DNA of 64,000 bases from Selenomonadaceae bacterium (GTDB taxonomy: Bacteria > Bacillota > Negativicutes > Selenomonadales > Selenomonadaceae): contig JAFYNH010000032.1 of assembly GCA_017549815.1 (NCBI GenBank), forward strand, positions 62,001-126,000. The letters run 5' to 3'. The position numbers and the translations under genes were made by a program. This document shows positions 17,658-40,357 of this stretch, one piece after another. The notes under the pieces were generated by a model. That model did no database searches, was not told the origin of the DNA, and saw only the letters and a program-made list of their open reading frames with translations. Position 1 is the stretch's first letter; every line of letters starts with the position of its first letter.

Positions 17658-20174
17658 TTACTTTGCAAGTGACCAATTTGAACCGCTGTGAATGTCGACG
17701 ACCAACGGCACTGCAAGCTCCGCGACGTTCTCCATTGAATCGCGCAGAATTTTTTCGACTTCGTCAAGCTCGGAATTTTTAGCCTCAACAACAAGTTCAT
17801 CGTGCACTTGAATAATAATTCGACTGTCAAAACCGCGCAGATTTTCTTCCGCCTTAAGCATAGCCAATTTAATAATATCGGCGGCGGAGCCTTGAATCGG
17901 CGTGTTCATTGCCATACGCTCGGCATTTGAACGGATATTGAAATTCAAACTGTTAATCCCGAATAACGCCCTGCGCCGCCCAAACATTGTCATAACATAG
18001 CCGTTAAGATGAGCCTGCGCAACTGTCGCGTCCAAAAAATCCTTGACGCCGGGATAACGCTCGAAGTAGCGCACAATGTATTCGCCCGCCTCCTGTCGGC
18101 TGATATGTAAATCCTGCGCCAAGCCATAAACGCTAATGCCGTAAACAATGCCGAAATTAACCGCCTTAGCTTTGCGGCGAAGATCGGGCGTCACCTCGTC
18201 AATCTCTACGCCGAAAACTTCAGATGCCGTCCGCGCATGAATGTCCTGCCCTTTTTTAAAGGCGTCGATTAAATTTTCATCGCCTGACATATGTGCGAGC
18301 AATCGAAGTTCAATCTGCGAATAATCGGCAGATAAAATGCAGTCGTAGCCTTTGCCTGGTAAAAACATAGCGCGAATTTCTCTGCCCTCTTCGGTGCGCA
18401 CGGGGATATTTTGGAGATTCGGATAGGAGCTTGAAAGTCTGCCCGTCGCCGTTATCGTCTGATTAAAATTCGTGTGAACGCGCCCGTCCGATTTGATTAA
18501 TTTAATTAGCCCCTCAAGGTATGTCGACCTTAACTTAGACAGCATACGGAAATTTATAATTTTGGGAATAATCGGGTGACGATCTTTAAGCTCGTCCAAA
18601 ACTTCGGCGTCGGTCGAAAAGCCCGTTCTGTTCTTCTTGACGGGCGGCAACTTCAAGTTCACAAATAAAACTTCGGCGAGTTGCTTAGTTGAATTTATGT
18701 TGAATACGCCATCTGCCATCGTGTAGATATTTCTTTCAAGCAGGAAAATTCGTTCGGACATCTCGGCGGATTTCTTTTTAAGCAAATATCTATCGACGAA
18801 CACGCCGCGTTTCTCCATTCGCGCCAAAATTTCTGTCAGCGGCAATTCGACTTCGCGATAAAGTTTCATTAAGTTCGTGTCGATTAAAGTTTTCTCGTAT
18901 TGCGGCGCGAGCTTTTCAAATGTAATTAGCGTTGTCGCCAGTTCTCGCCCAATGTCCAAATCGCCGTCGCGAATCCCCTTGTCACGTTCGGGATAAATCA
19001 GATAAGCCGCCAAATCCATATCGAAAAACTTTTCAAGGTTGGTGATTTTGAAGAGGCGCATATAATTTTTTAAGTCGTTCAGAATAATTTGCCCCTTAAA
19101 TTCTTCGAGGATTTTCTGAACGTCGTTGTAATTCGCCTTAAGAATTTCTCCGCCGAAAATTTTTACCGCGAAGATATTCAAGTTGTGCTCGGCGATTATC
19201 AATTTATCCGCCGCAAAAATTTTTTTAAAGTCAATAGTCAGCTCGGAAGTTTCGTCGGTAGGGTCTTGAAAAACTGACTCTGGGGTATCGGGAGACATTG
19301 AAAAAAGCGAATCGACGCCGAAGAAATCATGAATTTTTTTGCCAGTAGTATTCAAGGCGTAGCGTCGGCAAAATTCGTCGGCGCGTTCGATGTCGGGCGT
19401 GATTTTAAAATCGTCCTCGTTGAAAATAATTTCGGGAACGTCGCAAATAATTTGCGCGAGTTTTTTACTCAAGATTGCGTCGTCGGCAAATTTTTCGAGC
19501 CCTTCACGAGCCTTTTTATTTTTAACTTCTGCGCGGTGTTCAAGAACATTTTCGAGCGAGCCATATTCTTGAATCAGCGACATTGCGGTTTTATCGCCAA
19601 TGCCCTTGACGCCGGGAATATTATCGGAGGGGTCGCCCCTAAGCCCTTTAAAGTCGACGAGCAACGACGGAGCAAAGCCGTAATTGTCCATAAATTTTTT
19701 CTCGTCGTAAATTTCGATTTTGGATTTTGCGTTCAGAATGACTTGGGTATTGGCGTTGATAAGCTGGAGTGAATCGCGGTCGCCCGTCAAAATTCTAACA
19801 GAGAAATTTTTGGAGGCTTGCGTCGCCAAAGTGCCGATAATATCGTCAGCCTCGTAGCCCTCCGCCGAGCAAGACTTTATCCCGATAACTTCGATAAATT
19901 CTTTAATCGCGGAGAGTTGCGCGGCAAGTTCGTCGGGCATAGGTGGGCGATTTGCCTTGTATTTTTTAAAAAGTTCATTGCGGAAAGTTTTTTTAGCAAC
20001 GTCGAAGGCAACCGCCACGAGTTCGGGAGATTGTTCGCGCATGATTTTCAAAAGGATATTCGCGAAACCGACAATCGCGCCCGTCGGCTCACCGCTCGGA
20101 GCAGTCAAATGCGTCATGGCGTAAAACGCTCTGTAGATAATGCTGTTGCCATCGACTATCAAAAATTTTTTCAT
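17658..20174 (-). CDS. polA: DNA polymerase I
   Basis: 838 residues. The N-terminal 5'-3' exonuclease (1-290) has FLIVDGNSIIYRAFYA, EADDIIGTLA and LRGDPSDNIPGVKGIG. The middle domain (about 310-470) lacks the DEDD residues of a proofreading exonuclease, as in many Firmicute Pol I enzymes. The polymerase shows motif A DYSQIELR, motif B RRKAKAVNFGIVYG and motif C IQVHDELV. It fills repair gaps and removes Okazaki primers. The start codon overlaps the stop of the upstream L,D-transpeptidase gene by 4 bp. Confidence 0.97.
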   Translation of the reverse strand: MKKFLIVDGNSIIYRAFYAMTHLTAPSGEPTGAIVGFANILLKIMREQSPELVAVAFDVAKKTFRNELFKKYKANRPPMPDELAAQLSAIKEFIEVIGIKSCSAEGYEADDIIGTLATQASKNFSVRILTGDRDSLQLINANTQVILNAKSKIEIYDEKKFMDNYGFAPSLLVDFKGLRGDPSDNIPGVKGIGDKTAMSLIQEYGSLENVLEHRAEVKNKKAREGLEKFADDAILSKKLAQIICDVPEIIFNEDDFKITPDIERADEFCRRYALNTTGKKIHDFFGVDSLFSMSPDTPESVFQDPTDETSELTIDFKKIFAADKLIIAEHNLNIFAVKIFGGEILKANYNDVQKILEEFKGQIILNDLKNYMRLFKITNLEKFFDMDLAAYLIYPERDKGIRDGDLDIGRELATTLITFEKLAPQYEKTLIDTNLMKLYREVELPLTEILARMEKRGVFVDRYLLKKKSAEMSERIFLLERNIYTMADGVFNINSTKQLAEVLFVNLKLPPVKKNRTGFSTDAEVLDELKDRHPIIPKIINFRMLSKLRSTYLEGLIKLIKSDGRVHTNFNQTITATGRLSSSYPNLQNIPVRTEEGREIRAMFLPGKGYDCILSADYSQIELRLLAHMSGDENLIDAFKKGQDIHARTASEVFGVEIDEVTPDLRRKAKAVNFGIVYGISVYGLAQDLHISRQEAGEYIVRYFERYPGVKDFLDATVAQAHLNGYVMTMFGRRRALFGINSLNFNIRSNAERMAMNTPIQGSAADIIKLAMLKAEENLRGFDSRIIIQVHDELVVEAKNSELDEVEKILRDSMENVAELAVPLVVDIHSGSNWSLAK

Positions 20175-21397
20175 ACTTTCGCCTCCGCATCAATTTTAGG
20201 TTTAGATTCTTCTTCAGGTTTAGTCTCTTCGGGTTTAGTTTCTTCGGGTTTAGTTTCTTCGGGCTTAGTTTCTTCAGGTTTGGTTTTTTCGGGTTTAGTT
20301 TCTTCGGGTTTGGTTTCTTCGGGTTTAGATTCTTCAGGTTTAGTTTCTTCGGGCTTAGTTCCTTCAAAAGGCTCGGTTATATCGGTTTTGGGCTTATCGC
20401 GTTTCTTTTCTTCCTTAGGCTTATCGACGCGAGGAGCGGTCGGAATGGACTTGAAGCGGAAAATTTTCTTGCCGTCATTACCTGTCTGCAAGCCGCCTTC
20501 AATGTTGAATAAAATTATCGCGTCGTCGGCATTGCAATAAAGTTGTCCCTTGCGCTCGTAGCAAATGACCTTGCCGAATTTACTTTTGAGACTTGCCTCC
20601 GTCTTGTTCCATTCAAGCTTCATGCGTAAAATTTTAGCAATAGGCACGGCGGGCAGATAAGAAATTCCGTCGCGCAGAACAGCTTTGGCGAAATATCTGT
20701 TATTATTAGCGTCGGTAGGTTGCGCGAGTTCGCCGTTGACTTCGACGTTGTAAGGCTTGCCGATAAAAGTTGGTTCGCCGTCGGACGCCTCGATTTTCTG
20801 GGAAATGTTGTATTCGCTCTCGAAGGGCAACACGCCAAAAGGTTCAAGCCATTTAGTCACGTCGGCAACTGTAACGTTTTGTATGCCGTAGCCGTCGGGG
20901 TAAATGTAATAAACAACGTCATCATCGATATTTTTCTCAACGACGACGCGATTATAAGTTATCTCGACGGGCGTCCCGACTTCAACAACGTCAAAGAGTT
21001 CCTCAACGTCGCGTTCATTCATGCGTATGCAACCATTGGAAACGTAGTGCCCGATACTGTCTGGGCGATTGGTGCCGTGAATTCCGTAGTTGCCATAAAT
21101 CTGCATCCAGCGATAGCCAAGCGGATTATCCGGGCCAGAAGGAATTTCATATTCGGGGTCGGCGGGGTCTATCCATGAGGGATTAATCGCCTTCTCGGTA
21201 ATTTTGAAATAGCCAGAGGGAGTCGGCGTACTGACTTTGCCCAAGCCGAGATGATACATAGCGAGTCGGGTATTGCCGTCGTAAAGGAGCATAAGACGAC
21301 TTGCCGAATTGATAAAAATTCTTTTCTCCGCCTGCGCGGGCGTGATTAGCAAGCCTAAAATAAAAATAATTGCCGTGAAAAATTTCAACGCGCTCAT
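20171..21397 (-). CDS. Secreted L,D-transpeptidase (YkuD) with TKPEE-repeat tail
   Basis: 408 residues. A signal peptide (cut near ITPAQA, ~23) leads into the YkuD domain (about 25-150), with the catalytic motif HGTNRPD and SNGCIRMN supplying His and Cys. Residues ~230-310 resemble a copper-amine-oxidase N-terminal-like domain (FAKAVLRDGISYLPA). From ~345 the tail is about ten imperfect TKPEE pentapeptide repeats. Such enzymes make 3-3 peptidoglycan cross-links or attach proteins to the wall. The repeat tail may span or bind the wall (inference). Linked to polA only by the 4-bp overlap. Confidence 0.88.
   Translation of the reverse strand: MSALKFFTAIIFILGLLITPAQAEKRIFINSASRLMLLYDGNTRLAMYHLGLGKVSTPTPSGYFKITEKAINPSWIDPADPEYEIPSGPDNPLGYRWMQIYGNYGIHGTNRPDSIGHYVSNGCIRMNERDVEELFDVVEVGTPVEITYNRVVVEKNIDDDVVYYIYPDGYGIQNVTVADVTKWLEPFGVLPFESEYNISQKIEASDGEPTFIGKPYNVEVNGELAQPTDANNNRYFAKAVLRDGISYLPAVPIAKILRMKLEWNKTEASLKSKFGKVICYERKGQLYCNADDAIILFNIEGGLQTGNDGKKIFRFKSIPTAPRVDKPKEEKKRDKPKTDITEPFEGTKPEETKPEESKPEETKPEETKPEKTKPEETKPEETKPEETKPEETKPEEESKPKIDAEAKV
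20185..20360 (-). repeat. 15-bp coding repeats (TKPEE) in the L,D-transpeptidase tail
   Basis: About ten tandem 15-bp units encoding variants of TKPEE (also SKPEE and TKPEK). The near-identical DNA units make this a candidate for copy-number change between strains. Confidence 0.85.
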
Positions 21398-21466: not shown

Positions 21467-21495
21467 TTCACAAAGCCGCGCAGATTCGCTAAAAT
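21467..21495 (+). promoter_or_regulatory. Promoter of the rpn-like gene
   Basis: TTCACA (21467-21472) and TAAAAT (21490-21495) with 17 bp spacing, 39 bp before the ATG. Confidence 0.5.
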
Positions 21496-21533: not shown

Positions 21534-22436
21534 ATGTCAGAGGATTTATGGAAAAAGCATTGCGCCCGAATTCAAGAGTATTGTTTTATGGACGATATAT
21601 TTTTTAGCGTTTGCTTTGACGGGAACAAAAAATGCGTGCAGTATATTTTGCGCATAATCCTTGACAAGGAGGATTTGATTGTTGAGGAAGTTCACAGTCA
21701 GCAAACTATCGAAATTGTTTACGGGCGGTCAGTTAGACTTGACGTTTTCGCCAAAGACAGTTCGGGTAAACTTTACGACATTGAGATTCAGCGCACAGAC
21801 AAGGGAGCGATTCCTCAACGTGCCCGCTATAACAGCTCAATGCTCGATTATCACAGTCTCAACAAGGGCACTAGTTATACCGAGTTGCCTGAGACTTACG
21901 TAATTTTCATTACGGAAAACGACGTACTTAAAGACGGCGAGCAAATTTATTTTATTGACCGCACGATTCGCAAGAGCGGCAAACTTTTTAATGACGGCTC
22001 GCACATAATTTACGTCAATGGCAGTATTCGTGCTGGGAGTCCGCTCGGCGATTTAATGCATGATTTTTTCTGCAGAACGCCTTCGCAGATGAAACATGAG
22101 ACATTGGCGGATTGTTCAGAATTTTTCAAGAACCCTGACAGAGGAGGTTATATTATGTCAAGTGCTACAGAAGAACTGATTGCTGAAGGCAGGCACGAAG
22201 GCGAGGCTATCGGTTTTGCCAAAGGCGAGGCTGTCGGGCTTGTCAAAGGCGAGGCTATCGGTCTTACTAAAGGCGAGGCTATCGGTCTTACTAAAGGCGA
22301 GGCTATCGGCACACGCAAAACTTTGCTCGAAAATGTTCGCCACTTGATGAATAATTTTCGTTTAACGGCGGAGGCGGCAATGAATGCACTCGGCATCTCG
22401 CCCGAAACGCAAAAAGAACTTGCGCCACTCATTTGA
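21534..22436 (+). CDS. Rpn-family recombination-promoting nuclease/putative transposase (PD-(D/E)XK)
   Basis: 300 residues. The nuclease core (about 15-200) carries the PD-(D/E)XK signature: RLDVFAKDSSG followed by LYDIEIQ, giving the Asp and the Glu-x-Gln of the active site. The C-terminal part (208-300) has about five imperfect octapeptide repeats (KGEAIGLT type) and a helical end (LLENVRHLMNNFRL). Rpn proteins were described as RecA-independent recombination nucleases and, in E. coli, as toxic antiphage proteins. An internal start at 22155 (separate entry) lies inside this gene, and its 3' third is repeated just downstream. Confidence 0.85.
   Translation: MSEDLWKKHCARIQEYCFMDDIFFSVCFDGNKKCVQYILRIILDKEDLIVEEVHSQQTIEIVYGRSVRLDVFAKDSSGKLYDIEIQRTDKGAIPQRARYNSSMLDYHSLNKGTSYTELPETYVIFITENDVLKDGEQIYFIDRTIRKSGKLFNDGSHIIYVNGSIRAGSPLGDLMHDFFCRTPSQMKHETLADCSEFFKNPDRGGYIMSSATEELIAEGRHEGEAIGFAKGEAVGLVKGEAIGLTKGEAIGLTKGEAIGTRKTLLENVRHLMNNFRLTAEAAMNALGISPETQKELAPLI
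22155..22436 (+). CDS. Probable intragenic small protein from an internal start in the rpn-like gene
   Basis: In frame with the nuclease gene, an ATG at 22155 stands 7 nt behind a full GAGGAGG site, better than that of the parent gene. It would yield a 93-residue protein (MSSATEELIAEG...) made of the octapeptide repeats and C-terminal helices. In E. coli rpn genes, a small protein from an internal start is known to block the toxicity of the full-length nuclease. The arrangement here matches. That the same start and RBS recur in the duplicated gene at 22450 supports real use. Expression itself is inferred. Confidence 0.65.
   Translation: MSSATEELIAEGRHEGEAIGFAKGEAVGLVKGEAIGLTKGEAIGLTKGEAIGTRKTLLENVRHLMNNFRLTAEAAMNALGISPETQKELAPLI
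22197..22316 (+). repeat. 24-bp tandem coding repeats, first copy
   Basis: Five imperfect 24-bp units encoding (K)GEAIGxxK octapeptides inside the rpn-like gene. The second gene copy has six more uniform units, so unit number differs between the paralogous tracts. Confidence 0.85.
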
Positions 22437-22449
22437 AGGAAGTTATATT

Positions 22450-22782
22450 ATGTCAAGTGCTACAGAAGAATTACTTGCTGAAGGCAGGCACGAAGGCGAG
22501 GCTATCGGTCTTGCCAAAGGCGAAGCTATCGGTCTTGCCAAAGGCGAAGCTATCGGTCTTGCCAAAGGCGAAGCTATCGGTCTTGCCAAAGGTGAAGCTA
22601 TCGGTCTTACTAAAGGCGAGGCTATCGGCACACGCAAAACATTGCTCGAAAATGTTCGTCACTTGATGATTAATTTTCGTTTAACAGCAGAGGCGGCAAT
22701 GAATGCACTCGGCATCTCGCCCGAAATGCAAAAAGAACTTGCGCCGATTATTAACGAAAAAAATTTGGAGGTAAAAACATGA
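22450..22782 (+). CDS. Stand-alone copy of the Rpn C-terminal small protein
   Basis: 110 residues from an ATG 7 nt behind GAAGGAAG. Residues 1-~98 repeat the intragenic small protein of the preceding gene almost exactly, with six instead of five octapeptide units, and end in a new tail (IINEKNLEVKT). No nuclease domain precedes it: the upstream bases are the end of the rpn-like gene. It therefore looks like a partial tandem duplication that turned the internal product into its own gene. If the internal product is an antitoxin, this is a second dose of it. It is translationally coupled to ridA (ATGA overlap). Confidence 0.75.
   Translation: MSSATEELLAEGRHEGEAIGLAKGEAIGLAKGEAIGLAKGEAIGLAKGEAIGLTKGEAIGTRKTLLENVRHLMINFRLTAEAAMNALGISPEMQKELAPIINEKNLEVKT
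22493..22636 (+). repeat. 24-bp tandem coding repeats, second copy
   Basis: Six 24-bp units encoding GEAIGLAK-type octapeptides. The first four are almost identical, suggesting recent expansion by slippage or unequal recombination. Confidence 0.85.
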
Positions 22783-23150
22783 AAATTATTCATACGGACA
22801 AAGCTCCCGCCGCTGTTGGACCTTACAGTCAGGCGATTAAGGTAAACGGGCTTTTGTACACGTCGGGGCAAATCGCTATCGACCCTGTTGTCGGCAAAAT
22901 CGTCGCGACGAATATTGAAGGGCAAGCCGCGCAGTGTTGCAAGAATTTAGGCGCGATATTGGAGGCGGCGGGCTACGACTTCAGCGAAGTTTTCAAGACG
23001 ACGTGTTTCCTCGCCGACATCGCCGATTTTAAAGCGTTCAATGCGGTTTACGAAAAATATTTTATCAGCAAACCTGCGCGGAGTTGCGTAGCGGTTAAGG
23101 ACTTGCCGGCGGGCGCACTCTGCGAAATTGAATTAATCGCCGCCAAATGA
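22779..23150 (+). CDS. ridA: RidA family reactive intermediate deaminase
   Basis: 123 residues, full length. The family active-site Arg lies in ARSCVAVKDLPAGA and the conserved Glu in CEIELIA. RidA hydrolyses toxic enamine/imine intermediates formed by PLP enzymes. GGAGG precedes the ATG, which overlaps the previous stop; its own stop overlaps the ecfA1 start. The overlap chain places rpn C-terminal copy, ridA, ecfA1 and ecfA2 in one transcription unit. Confidence 0.93.
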   Translation: MKIIHTDKAPAAVGPYSQAIKVNGLLYTSGQIAIDPVVGKIVATNIEGQAAQCCKNLGAILEAAGYDFSEVFKTTCFLADIADFKAFNAVYEKYFISKPARSCVAVKDLPAGALCEIELIAAK

Positions 23151-28013: not shown

Positions 28014-28096
28014 TTCAGGGATTAGGATTAAGGAGTCAGGGAGTAGGGGGAAAATTTTTCCCTAAATCCTAAATCCTGTATCCTAAATCCTAAAAA
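28014..28096. repeat. Dispersed heptad repeat array, locus 5
   Basis: GGATTA/GGAGTCA units followed by complementary TAAATCC units, placed in the codY leader RNA between its promoter and ribosome-binding site. The palindrome could fold in the mRNA. Confidence 0.75.
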
Positions 28097-40160: not shown

Positions 40161-40287
40161 TATTTGAAAAACTTTTCTTTTGCTCGCCCAAAAGAAAAGT
40201 TACAAAAGAAAAGGGCGTCAGCCCGGCAAAGAAACATCCATGTTTCTATTGCCGGCGGCGCACGTCCATGTGCGCCGGGTTTCACCT
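40161..40287 (-). repeat. Three-hairpin dispersed repeat, copy C (inverted)
   Basis: Read on the minus strand it has the same order as copies A and B: GGCGCAC/GTGCGCC stem, then AGAAACAT/ATGTTTCT stem, then the AACTTTTCTTTTG/CAAAAGAAAAGTT stem. The second stem has an entirely different sequence from the other copies yet stays fully paired. Confidence 0.85.
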
Positions 40288-40357
40288 AATCTCTAATTCC
40301 TAACCCCTAACTACTAACCCCTACTAGTTCCTAATTCCTAGTCCCTAGTCCCTATTC
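40286..40357. repeat. Dispersed heptad repeat array, locus 8
   Basis: TAATTCCTAACCCCTAA-type units filling the space between copy C of the hairpin repeat and the pyrH promoter. With loci 7 and copy C it accounts for the whole 40088-40367 gap. Confidence 0.75.

Follow-up and report, generated by a model that had tools for sequence, protein, structure and literature searches.

A PF12784 rpn gene of a Selenomonadaceae bacterium with an internal start, followed by a stand-alone copy of its tail that differs in repeat number

The window analysed here is a 64,000-nucleotide stretch of DNA from a Selenomonadaceae bacterium, in which an rpn nuclease gene with an internal start precedes a separate open reading frame resembling its own C-terminal tail. 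The features are as follows (window positions):

21467-21495, plus strand: promoter-like element TTCACA-N17-TAAAAT before rpn, 10/12 consensus bases
21534-22436, plus strand: rpn gene (RpnL), 300 aa; PD-(D/E)XK nuclease domain at about residues 1-205, then a C-terminal repeat tail
22141-22147, plus strand: internal Shine-Dalgarno (SD) GAGGAGG, ending 7 nt before ATG 22155
22155-22436, plus strand: intragenic RpnS ORF, 93 aa; arm MSSATEEL, GEAxG octads, C-terminal helical domain
22198-22309, plus strand: tandem 24-bp repeats within the intragenic tail, 4.7 copies (Tandem Repeats Finder, TRF)
22435-22442, plus strand: weak SD-like GAAGGAAG of the free copy, ending 7 nt upstream of ATG 22450; -5.8 kcal/mol
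22450-22782, plus strand: stand-alone rpnS-like gene (the free copy), 110 aa; one octad longer than the intragenic tail, with nine extra C-terminal residues
22493-22628, plus strand: tandem 24-bp repeats within the free copy, 5.7 copies (TRF)
22779-23150, plus strand: ridA (RidA/YjgF), PF01042 at E 1.8e-39; own SD of -10.6; ATGA overlap with the free copy

The rpn product matched PF12784 (E 1.7e-13; 51.3 bits, cut-off 27.4) and TIGR01784 (E 1.1e-14; 55.0 bits, cut-off 52.1), and it carries the catalytic domain of the Rpn (COG5464/TIGR01784) nucleases. Residues D70, E84 and Q86 (E84-x-Q86) are invariant across 11 aligned proteins, the window protein among them, and we take them to be the PD-(D/E)XK catalytic residues of the window RpnL. 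The two E. coli proteins scanned, RpnE and RpnC, fall in PF04754 and the window protein in PF12784; the window rpn therefore belongs to a sister branch. Its closest named relatives come from uncultured Selenomonadales and a sheep-rumen Selenomonadaceae bacterium. A search of PDB sequences with the full-length protein returned chance matches only, PADLOC gave no match for the window rpn system, and one scan of viral contigs with six peptide patterns found no relative. FliH matches in NCBIfam, far under cut-off, were rejected and probably reflect repeat composition; a Yae1_N match of the tail, also under cut-off, was rejected as well.

The ATG at 22155 lies in frame with rpn, and its anti-SD duplex reaches -12.7 kcal/mol at a spacing of 5. 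The earlier note had described this ATG as an in-frame start 7 nt behind GAGGAGG with a 93-residue product, and direct reading bears this out. The other long ORFs of the window (45 of 150 aa or more, treated as coding sequences, longest first, the rpn ORF left out) contain 302 internal in-frame ATGs, none of which reached -10 kcal/mol, and the SD of rpn's own start is -5.9 kcal/mol. SD-like strings also arise in rpn without evident meaning, as at another ATG, 22380 (SD -9.5, spacing 4); both 22380 and 22384 follow a GGAGG inside the gene. A survey of 66 genus genomes and two genomes of another family of the class supplied 50 ORFs, that of the window among them, in which the catalytic domain is complete; thinning to <90% identity left 43. 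An SD start (-6 or better, spacing 4-11) was found 10-25 codons past the nuclease domain in 41 of these 43 representatives, the window gene among them (46 of 50 ORFs before thinning), the exceptions being L074 and L135; in 15 other intervals of equal size, only 0-3 of 41-43 representatives each had one. These results show that the internal start of rpn is under selection. A looser survey of the phylum, with PF12784 in 43 of 299 genomes and 50 loci read from the match list, found a C-terminal SD start of -6.4 or better in 47 of 48 rpn ORFs, counted over a wide region and without a sliding control. From its sequence, then, the window gene has the arrangement of a gene within a gene, with an SD-preceded internal start just ahead of a variable tail. 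The GEAxG octads begin at about residue 16, within the 8-20 residues past the RpnS start where variable repeats are looked for, and an octad, at 8 residues or 24 nt, corresponds to two of the four-residue units described for Rpn tails.

The tail had also been likened to an intragenic inhibitor of E. coli, and profile comparisons support the likeness. A 37-row profile of tails from the genus and near kin, compared with 177,635 PDB sequences, matched the crystal structure of E. coli RpnAS, 7TH0, at E 2.1e-6, PDB entry 8vd6 (called CAP REPEAT) scoring above it at E 1e-34; with this profile the tail is homologous to RpnAS. Alignment of genus tails with E. coli tails in hhalign gave a probability of 96.9 (E 2e-10). 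A seven-row profile of close tails reached 7TH0 at E 0.46, and hhalign of the seven close tails against the E. coli tails gave a probability of 52.9.

The ORF from ATG 22450 ends at TGA 22780-22782 and is, on direct reading, the separate 110-codon gene with its own ribosome binding site that had been reported, the site being weak (-5.8). It is a tail-like free ORF with its own start, as in stand-alone downstream RpnS genes of the ypaA type. The free copy and the intragenic tail share 85 of 93 residues at a net difference of +8, and counting GEAxG blocks gives six in the free copy and five in the tail, as the earlier note had it for the octapeptide repeats. An ATG at 22384, inside rpn and in the frame of the free copy, would yield a 132-aa form (SD -9.5, spacing 8) that the earlier note had passed over; the survey of downstream ORFs, in which the best-scoring start codon at spacing 4-11 was taken with no energy threshold, used 22384 as the start of the window free copy, and the later arm, tree and length analyses used 22450. 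The AlphaFold model of the free RpnS has a mean pLDDT of 49.9, and the C-terminal part alone is usable (helices 55-76, 80-86 and 91-106). The dN/dS of the window pair is 0.15, and a test against a neutral free copy with a frozen parent gave P 0.028 for all codons and P 0.072 outside the repeats, which lends modest support to purifying selection on the free copy.

A search of related genomes for the same tandem layout found a downstream tail-like ORF of at least 40 aa at 22 of 59 rpn genes that had a placed internal start and a closed end. The other 37 lack such an ORF; for 33 of these, the downstream sequence extends over 300 nt or more. Within the genus the count is 20 of 57 rpn genes, L026 and L027 lying outside it. 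On a tree of 21 pairs (L006 left out) the label intragenic or free needs 19 changes, at least 14 of which are forced by well-supported (starred) branches. Free copies mostly group with their own parent, the exceptions being L075/L117, L105/L111 and L025/L116, a pattern that points to repeated duplication or homogenisation. The layout is common in the window's genus and rare in the phylum sample, where three downstream calls were made: L225, an unambiguous free copy lying 651 nt downstream (net +4 by inspection), L216, a distant copy, and L248, rejected because its coordinates place it within a following rpn gene.

This distribution bears on whether the free copy is simply a recent, functionless tandem duplicate on its way to decay. 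We consider this unlikely: open, SD-preceded copies occur at about 50-65% identity to the parent tail (L105, L012, L111), and pN is 0.134 against a pS of 0.354 when pooled over 22 pairs, both the identity range and the pooled figures being biased by a detection that needed an open frame of at least 40 aa. Decay would nevertheless agree with the frameshifted copy of G014 at the same ridA locus, with the copy of G007 (L021), which departs from its parent at the C-terminus, and, in the window, with the weak SD of the free copy and the modest outcome of the selection test.

A second, YhgA-like nuclease family was seen in the genus (L035, L038 and L042, at G051:C1, G050:C31 and G057:C60; L004, at G000:C7). 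The three members scanned scored 19.5-23.3 bits with PF04754 (cut-off 21). Tails of this family resemble the window tail (60% identity for G000:C7), and its internal SD starts are strong (-8.8 to -13.0); in G050 and G057 there is also a downstream copy, shorter by eight residues. Different nuclease families thus seem to share their tails. Elsewhere (L101, G047:C26; L023, G040:C6; L150, G053:C5) the nuclease part is interrupted or truncated and the tail ORF is open, with a strong SD; an rpn gene with a broken nuclease part and an open tail ORF is another route to a stand-alone RpnS.

Upstream of rpn, the minus-strand ORF 20171-21397 (ldt), which we take to be an L,D-transpeptidase gene, ends C-terminally in a Lys-Pro-Glu-Glu-Thr array encoded by 15-bp tandem repeats (10.4 copies, 20210-20365). 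Telomere-like CCTAAAT/CCCTAA short tandem repeats occur at 605-679, 28061-28094 and 40285-40323 of the window. Downstream, ridA is present in 57 of 66 genus genomes, and the best 30 of these 57 loci were read. Among the 30, rpn lies between ldt and ridA in G000, G014, G051 and G047, and in nine ldt lies within about 160 nt of ridA with no rpn. In six of the loci without rpn, TTCACA-N17-TAAAAT or TAATAT stands 58-60 nt before ridA (L158, L160, L162, L165, L166 and L176), and the same kind of promoter-like element precedes rpn in G014 and G051; the 64-kb stretch holds five sites of that grade against 2.1 expected. We show in this way that the rpn unit lies between the ridA promoter element and ridA. 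At this locus G051 has rpn without a duplication, G014 a frameshifted tandem copy, and G047 an interrupted nuclease part with an open tail ORF and its SD.

The ATGA overlap of the free copy with ridA arises because the free copy, without the stop of the tail, reads nine codons into the ridA leader. It had been proposed that the free copy is translationally linked to ridA and the ECF ATPases. The overlap is real, but the ridA leader and SD are comparable in genomes without rpn, and the link looks incidental. A role of the free ORF as a translational leader to which ridA expression is coupled, as the overlap of its stop with the ridA start might suggest, is accordingly very improbable; we rejected it on the strong SD of ridA itself and the comparable leaders found where rpn is absent.

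The new and testable point is the repeat mismatch between free copies and their neighbours. Fifteen of 24 pairs aligned end to end (14 PF12784 pairs and one YhgA-like, L038), and they are partly dependent: L026 and L027, which show the same difference, belong to a pair of genomes from one other genus, and L105 and L111 occur together in a single genome. Thirteen of the 15 differ in net length, all by multiples of four residues (4 to 20 residues; 8 in the window pair). The two equal-length pairs are L019 in G053, whose free copy and tail are identical at 105 of 108 residues, and L145 in G020. The nine pairs left out have less regular net differences: six align in part (L117, 15/37 identical, net 0; L030, 24/47, net 0; L092, 33/71, net +16; L099, 20/36, net -3; L116, 21/34, net 0; L075, 29/40, net -3), L006 is a frameshifted copy (partial net -2), the L021 copy is not aligned to its end (partial net +4), and L042, of the second family, has a copy that runs on (partial net -8). 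The mismatch recurs in E. coli, where all 17 two-copy loci examined (12 rpnE, 5 rpnC) differ in the repeat segment. The 12 rpnE/ypaA loci, K-12 and others picked from a spread listing (24 of 5,371 records), show six length combinations in the 11 complete loci, one of them common to six loci; in the twelfth, L205, the locus ends within the free copy, whose repeat segment is already different. Seven rpnC loci were read, and all five with a downstream copy differ. Four of ten E. coli pairs in the net-length analysis differ by something other than a multiple of four.

In RpnC, adding a single four-residue repeat abolishes neutralisation, in both directions (Zhong et al. 2023, PMC10327210); the rule comes from one protein and one four-residue insertion, and an octad may behave differently. 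The repeat number of the window free copy differs from that of the adjacent RpnL (net +8), and if the RpnC rule carries over, most free copies would not neutralise their neighbour. The mismatch speaks against selection for matching. Slippage-prone repeats can drift into mismatch, so selection for mismatch is not implied. The rarity of a repeat match between free copy and neighbour is not stated in the main text of the Zhong et al. 2023 preprint (PMC10327210). The claim that an intragenic inhibitor was copied into a free gene stands as far as the duplication of the tail goes; that the product is the same inhibitor is doubtful, the repeats differing by one octad.

The same data weigh on a redundant-antitoxin reading, in which the free copy supplies further inhibitor of one and the same kind for the adjacent RpnL. 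Such a role would suit its 85/93 identity with the tail, its separate start and open ORF, the near-identical pair of equal length in G053 (L019), and the detection of tagged YpaA/RpnES as a protein (Zhong et al. 2023, PMC10327210). We nevertheless hold it to be rather unlikely, as the repeat segment differs in 13 of 15 spanning pairs and in all 17 E. coli loci, a mismatch of one repeat abolished RpnC neutralisation (PMC10327210), and a new weak start adds little beside an intragenic RpnS whose SD is far stronger.

Free RpnS copies downstream of rpn have been published before, and the window gene adds a member from the PF12784 branch. Zhong et al. 2023 (PMC10327210) described stand-alone downstream copies of independent origin, ypaA by rpnE and a copy by rpnC. 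Like the window gene, E. coli rpnE with ypaA (RpnES) and rpnC with its copy combine a nuclease gene containing an internal RpnS start, a stand-alone copy of the tail that has its own start and lies just downstream, and a variable number of four-residue repeats, their free copies being independently derived; in K-12 rpnE/ypaA the repeat number likewise differs, 56 versus 61 aa, with one repeat more. RefSeq labels K-12 RpnE inactive and ypaA a pseudogene (L196, NC_000913.3 2356904-2358001); tagged products of both were detected despite these labels (Zhong et al. 2023, PMC10327210). The window gene differs from the E. coli systems in its nuclease family (PF12784, not the PF04754 of RpnE and RpnC), in its repeat, an octad of two four-residue units, and in a free copy that extends into ridA; within its genus, free copies are common (20/57 genes). 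C. difficile Rpn shares with it an internal start in a Gram-positive rpn gene, there demonstrated by mutating the ribosome binding site and the start, whereas the main text of Zhong et al. 2023 (PMC10327210) describes no free copy beside it. The TAEL repeats of EcoR124I/EcoR124II resemble Rpn tails in that the number of a four-residue repeat alters specificity (cited in PMC10327210); they set DNA target spacing, whereas the window repeats are proposed to match protein to protein. A search of titles and abstracts, its coverage leaving out most subscription journals, found no other paper on RpnS among the matches listed.

Drawing on the homology, the selected internal start, the duplication, the repeat mismatch and the insertion site, all read from sequence, we think it probable that rpn is a gene-within-gene RpnL/RpnS toxin-antitoxin and the free copy an RpnS of alternative specificity. 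Full-length RpnL would be a PD-(D/E)XK DNA nuclease and putative toxin. The internal start would yield RpnS, which would pair with RpnL through the repeat helix and keep it inactive, and the 110-aa downstream gene would be a duplicate of the tail retained as a stand-alone RpnS. We infer that these products are translated from a common operon transcript, that RpnL is an active nuclease and that RpnS neutralises it; homology alone ties the PF12784 protein of the window to the tested PF04754 Rpns of E. coli. The unit is a candidate phage defence. The role of the free copy is the step of which we are least certain. Because its repeat helix is eight residues longer, the free copy probably pairs poorly with its own RpnL, and on balance we favour an RpnS of alternative specificity over a redundant antitoxin.

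The free copy can also be read as a spare cassette for the tail: through recombination at the 5' arms common to both, it would take the place of the intragenic tail, which would change the specificity of RpnL and RpnS in one step. We regard this as possible, if doubtful. The arms are more alike in their codons than the remainder: where a pair agrees at 9 or more of 12 arm residues (14 pairs), identical residues share their codon at 151 of 161 positions in the arm versus 532 of 643 outside it (P 2e-4), and in the five diverged pairs at 52 of 58 versus 114 of 149 (P 0.034), with the reservation that codons within a pair are not independent and that the arm includes the start codon. These figures supersede a comparison of four diverged pairs chosen after seeing the data (45/47 versus 86/113, P 0.003). 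Similar arm codons could also result from selection acting on the region of the start.

E. coli rpnE offers alleles that resemble the products of such an exchange, and they are widespread. The nine single-copy rpnE alleles bear the tail type of the free copy, and they do not form one clade among the 12 two-copy alleles on a tree from 700 nt of the catalytic part (21 loci; local supports of 0.85 at the two critical places). The single-copy L204 differs from L201 at 2 of 700 nt in the catalytic segment, and its tail has the length and repeat number of the L201 free copy, to which it is identical at 194 of 198 positions, against 170 of 195 for the L201 intragenic tail. The single-copy L262 differs from L270 at 0 of 700 nt, and its tail is identical at 172 of 174 positions to the L270 free copy and at 149 of 171 to the L270 intragenic tail. 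The repeat number of L262, however, is that of the L270 intragenic tail (none), and its C-terminus alone is of the free type; not every fusion, therefore, changes the repeat code. Both tails fit recombination or deletion between repeats that would have joined the free tail, whole or in part, to the nuclease. Across 5,426 E. coli genomes the yfaU-side tail is present in 5,364 and the intragenic-type tail with a second start in 3,101, so that about 2,263 appear single-copy, provided the smaller set lies within the larger. Such fusions are already reported, as loss of rpnS, in Zhong et al. 2023 (PMC10327210). The link that we infer between fusion and repeat switching is absent from the main text of that preprint. 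Against an evolved exchange it must be said that neighbouring repeats recombine without any function for recombination, that no switching event was seen in the window's genus, and that the E. coli sample is small (21 loci) with moderate branch support, alleles also recombining between strains.

The layout recurs in two nuclease families of the genus (PF12784 and YhgA-like) and in E. coli. As a general account, rather unlikely to hold, stand-alone RpnS genes would be non-matching spare cassettes and not backups: recombination at the arm would swap the tails of toxin and antitoxin together and never unmatch them, and the swap would in one step give an Rpn system a different repeat code and alter what senses or evades it. 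These considerations bear on why Rpn tails vary fast and why cells keep a second RpnS. If the free copy fails on its neighbour, stand-alone RpnS copies would have another job, and if the cassette account is true, switching the specificity of toxin and antitoxin in one step would give such a defence a new means of keeping pace with phages.
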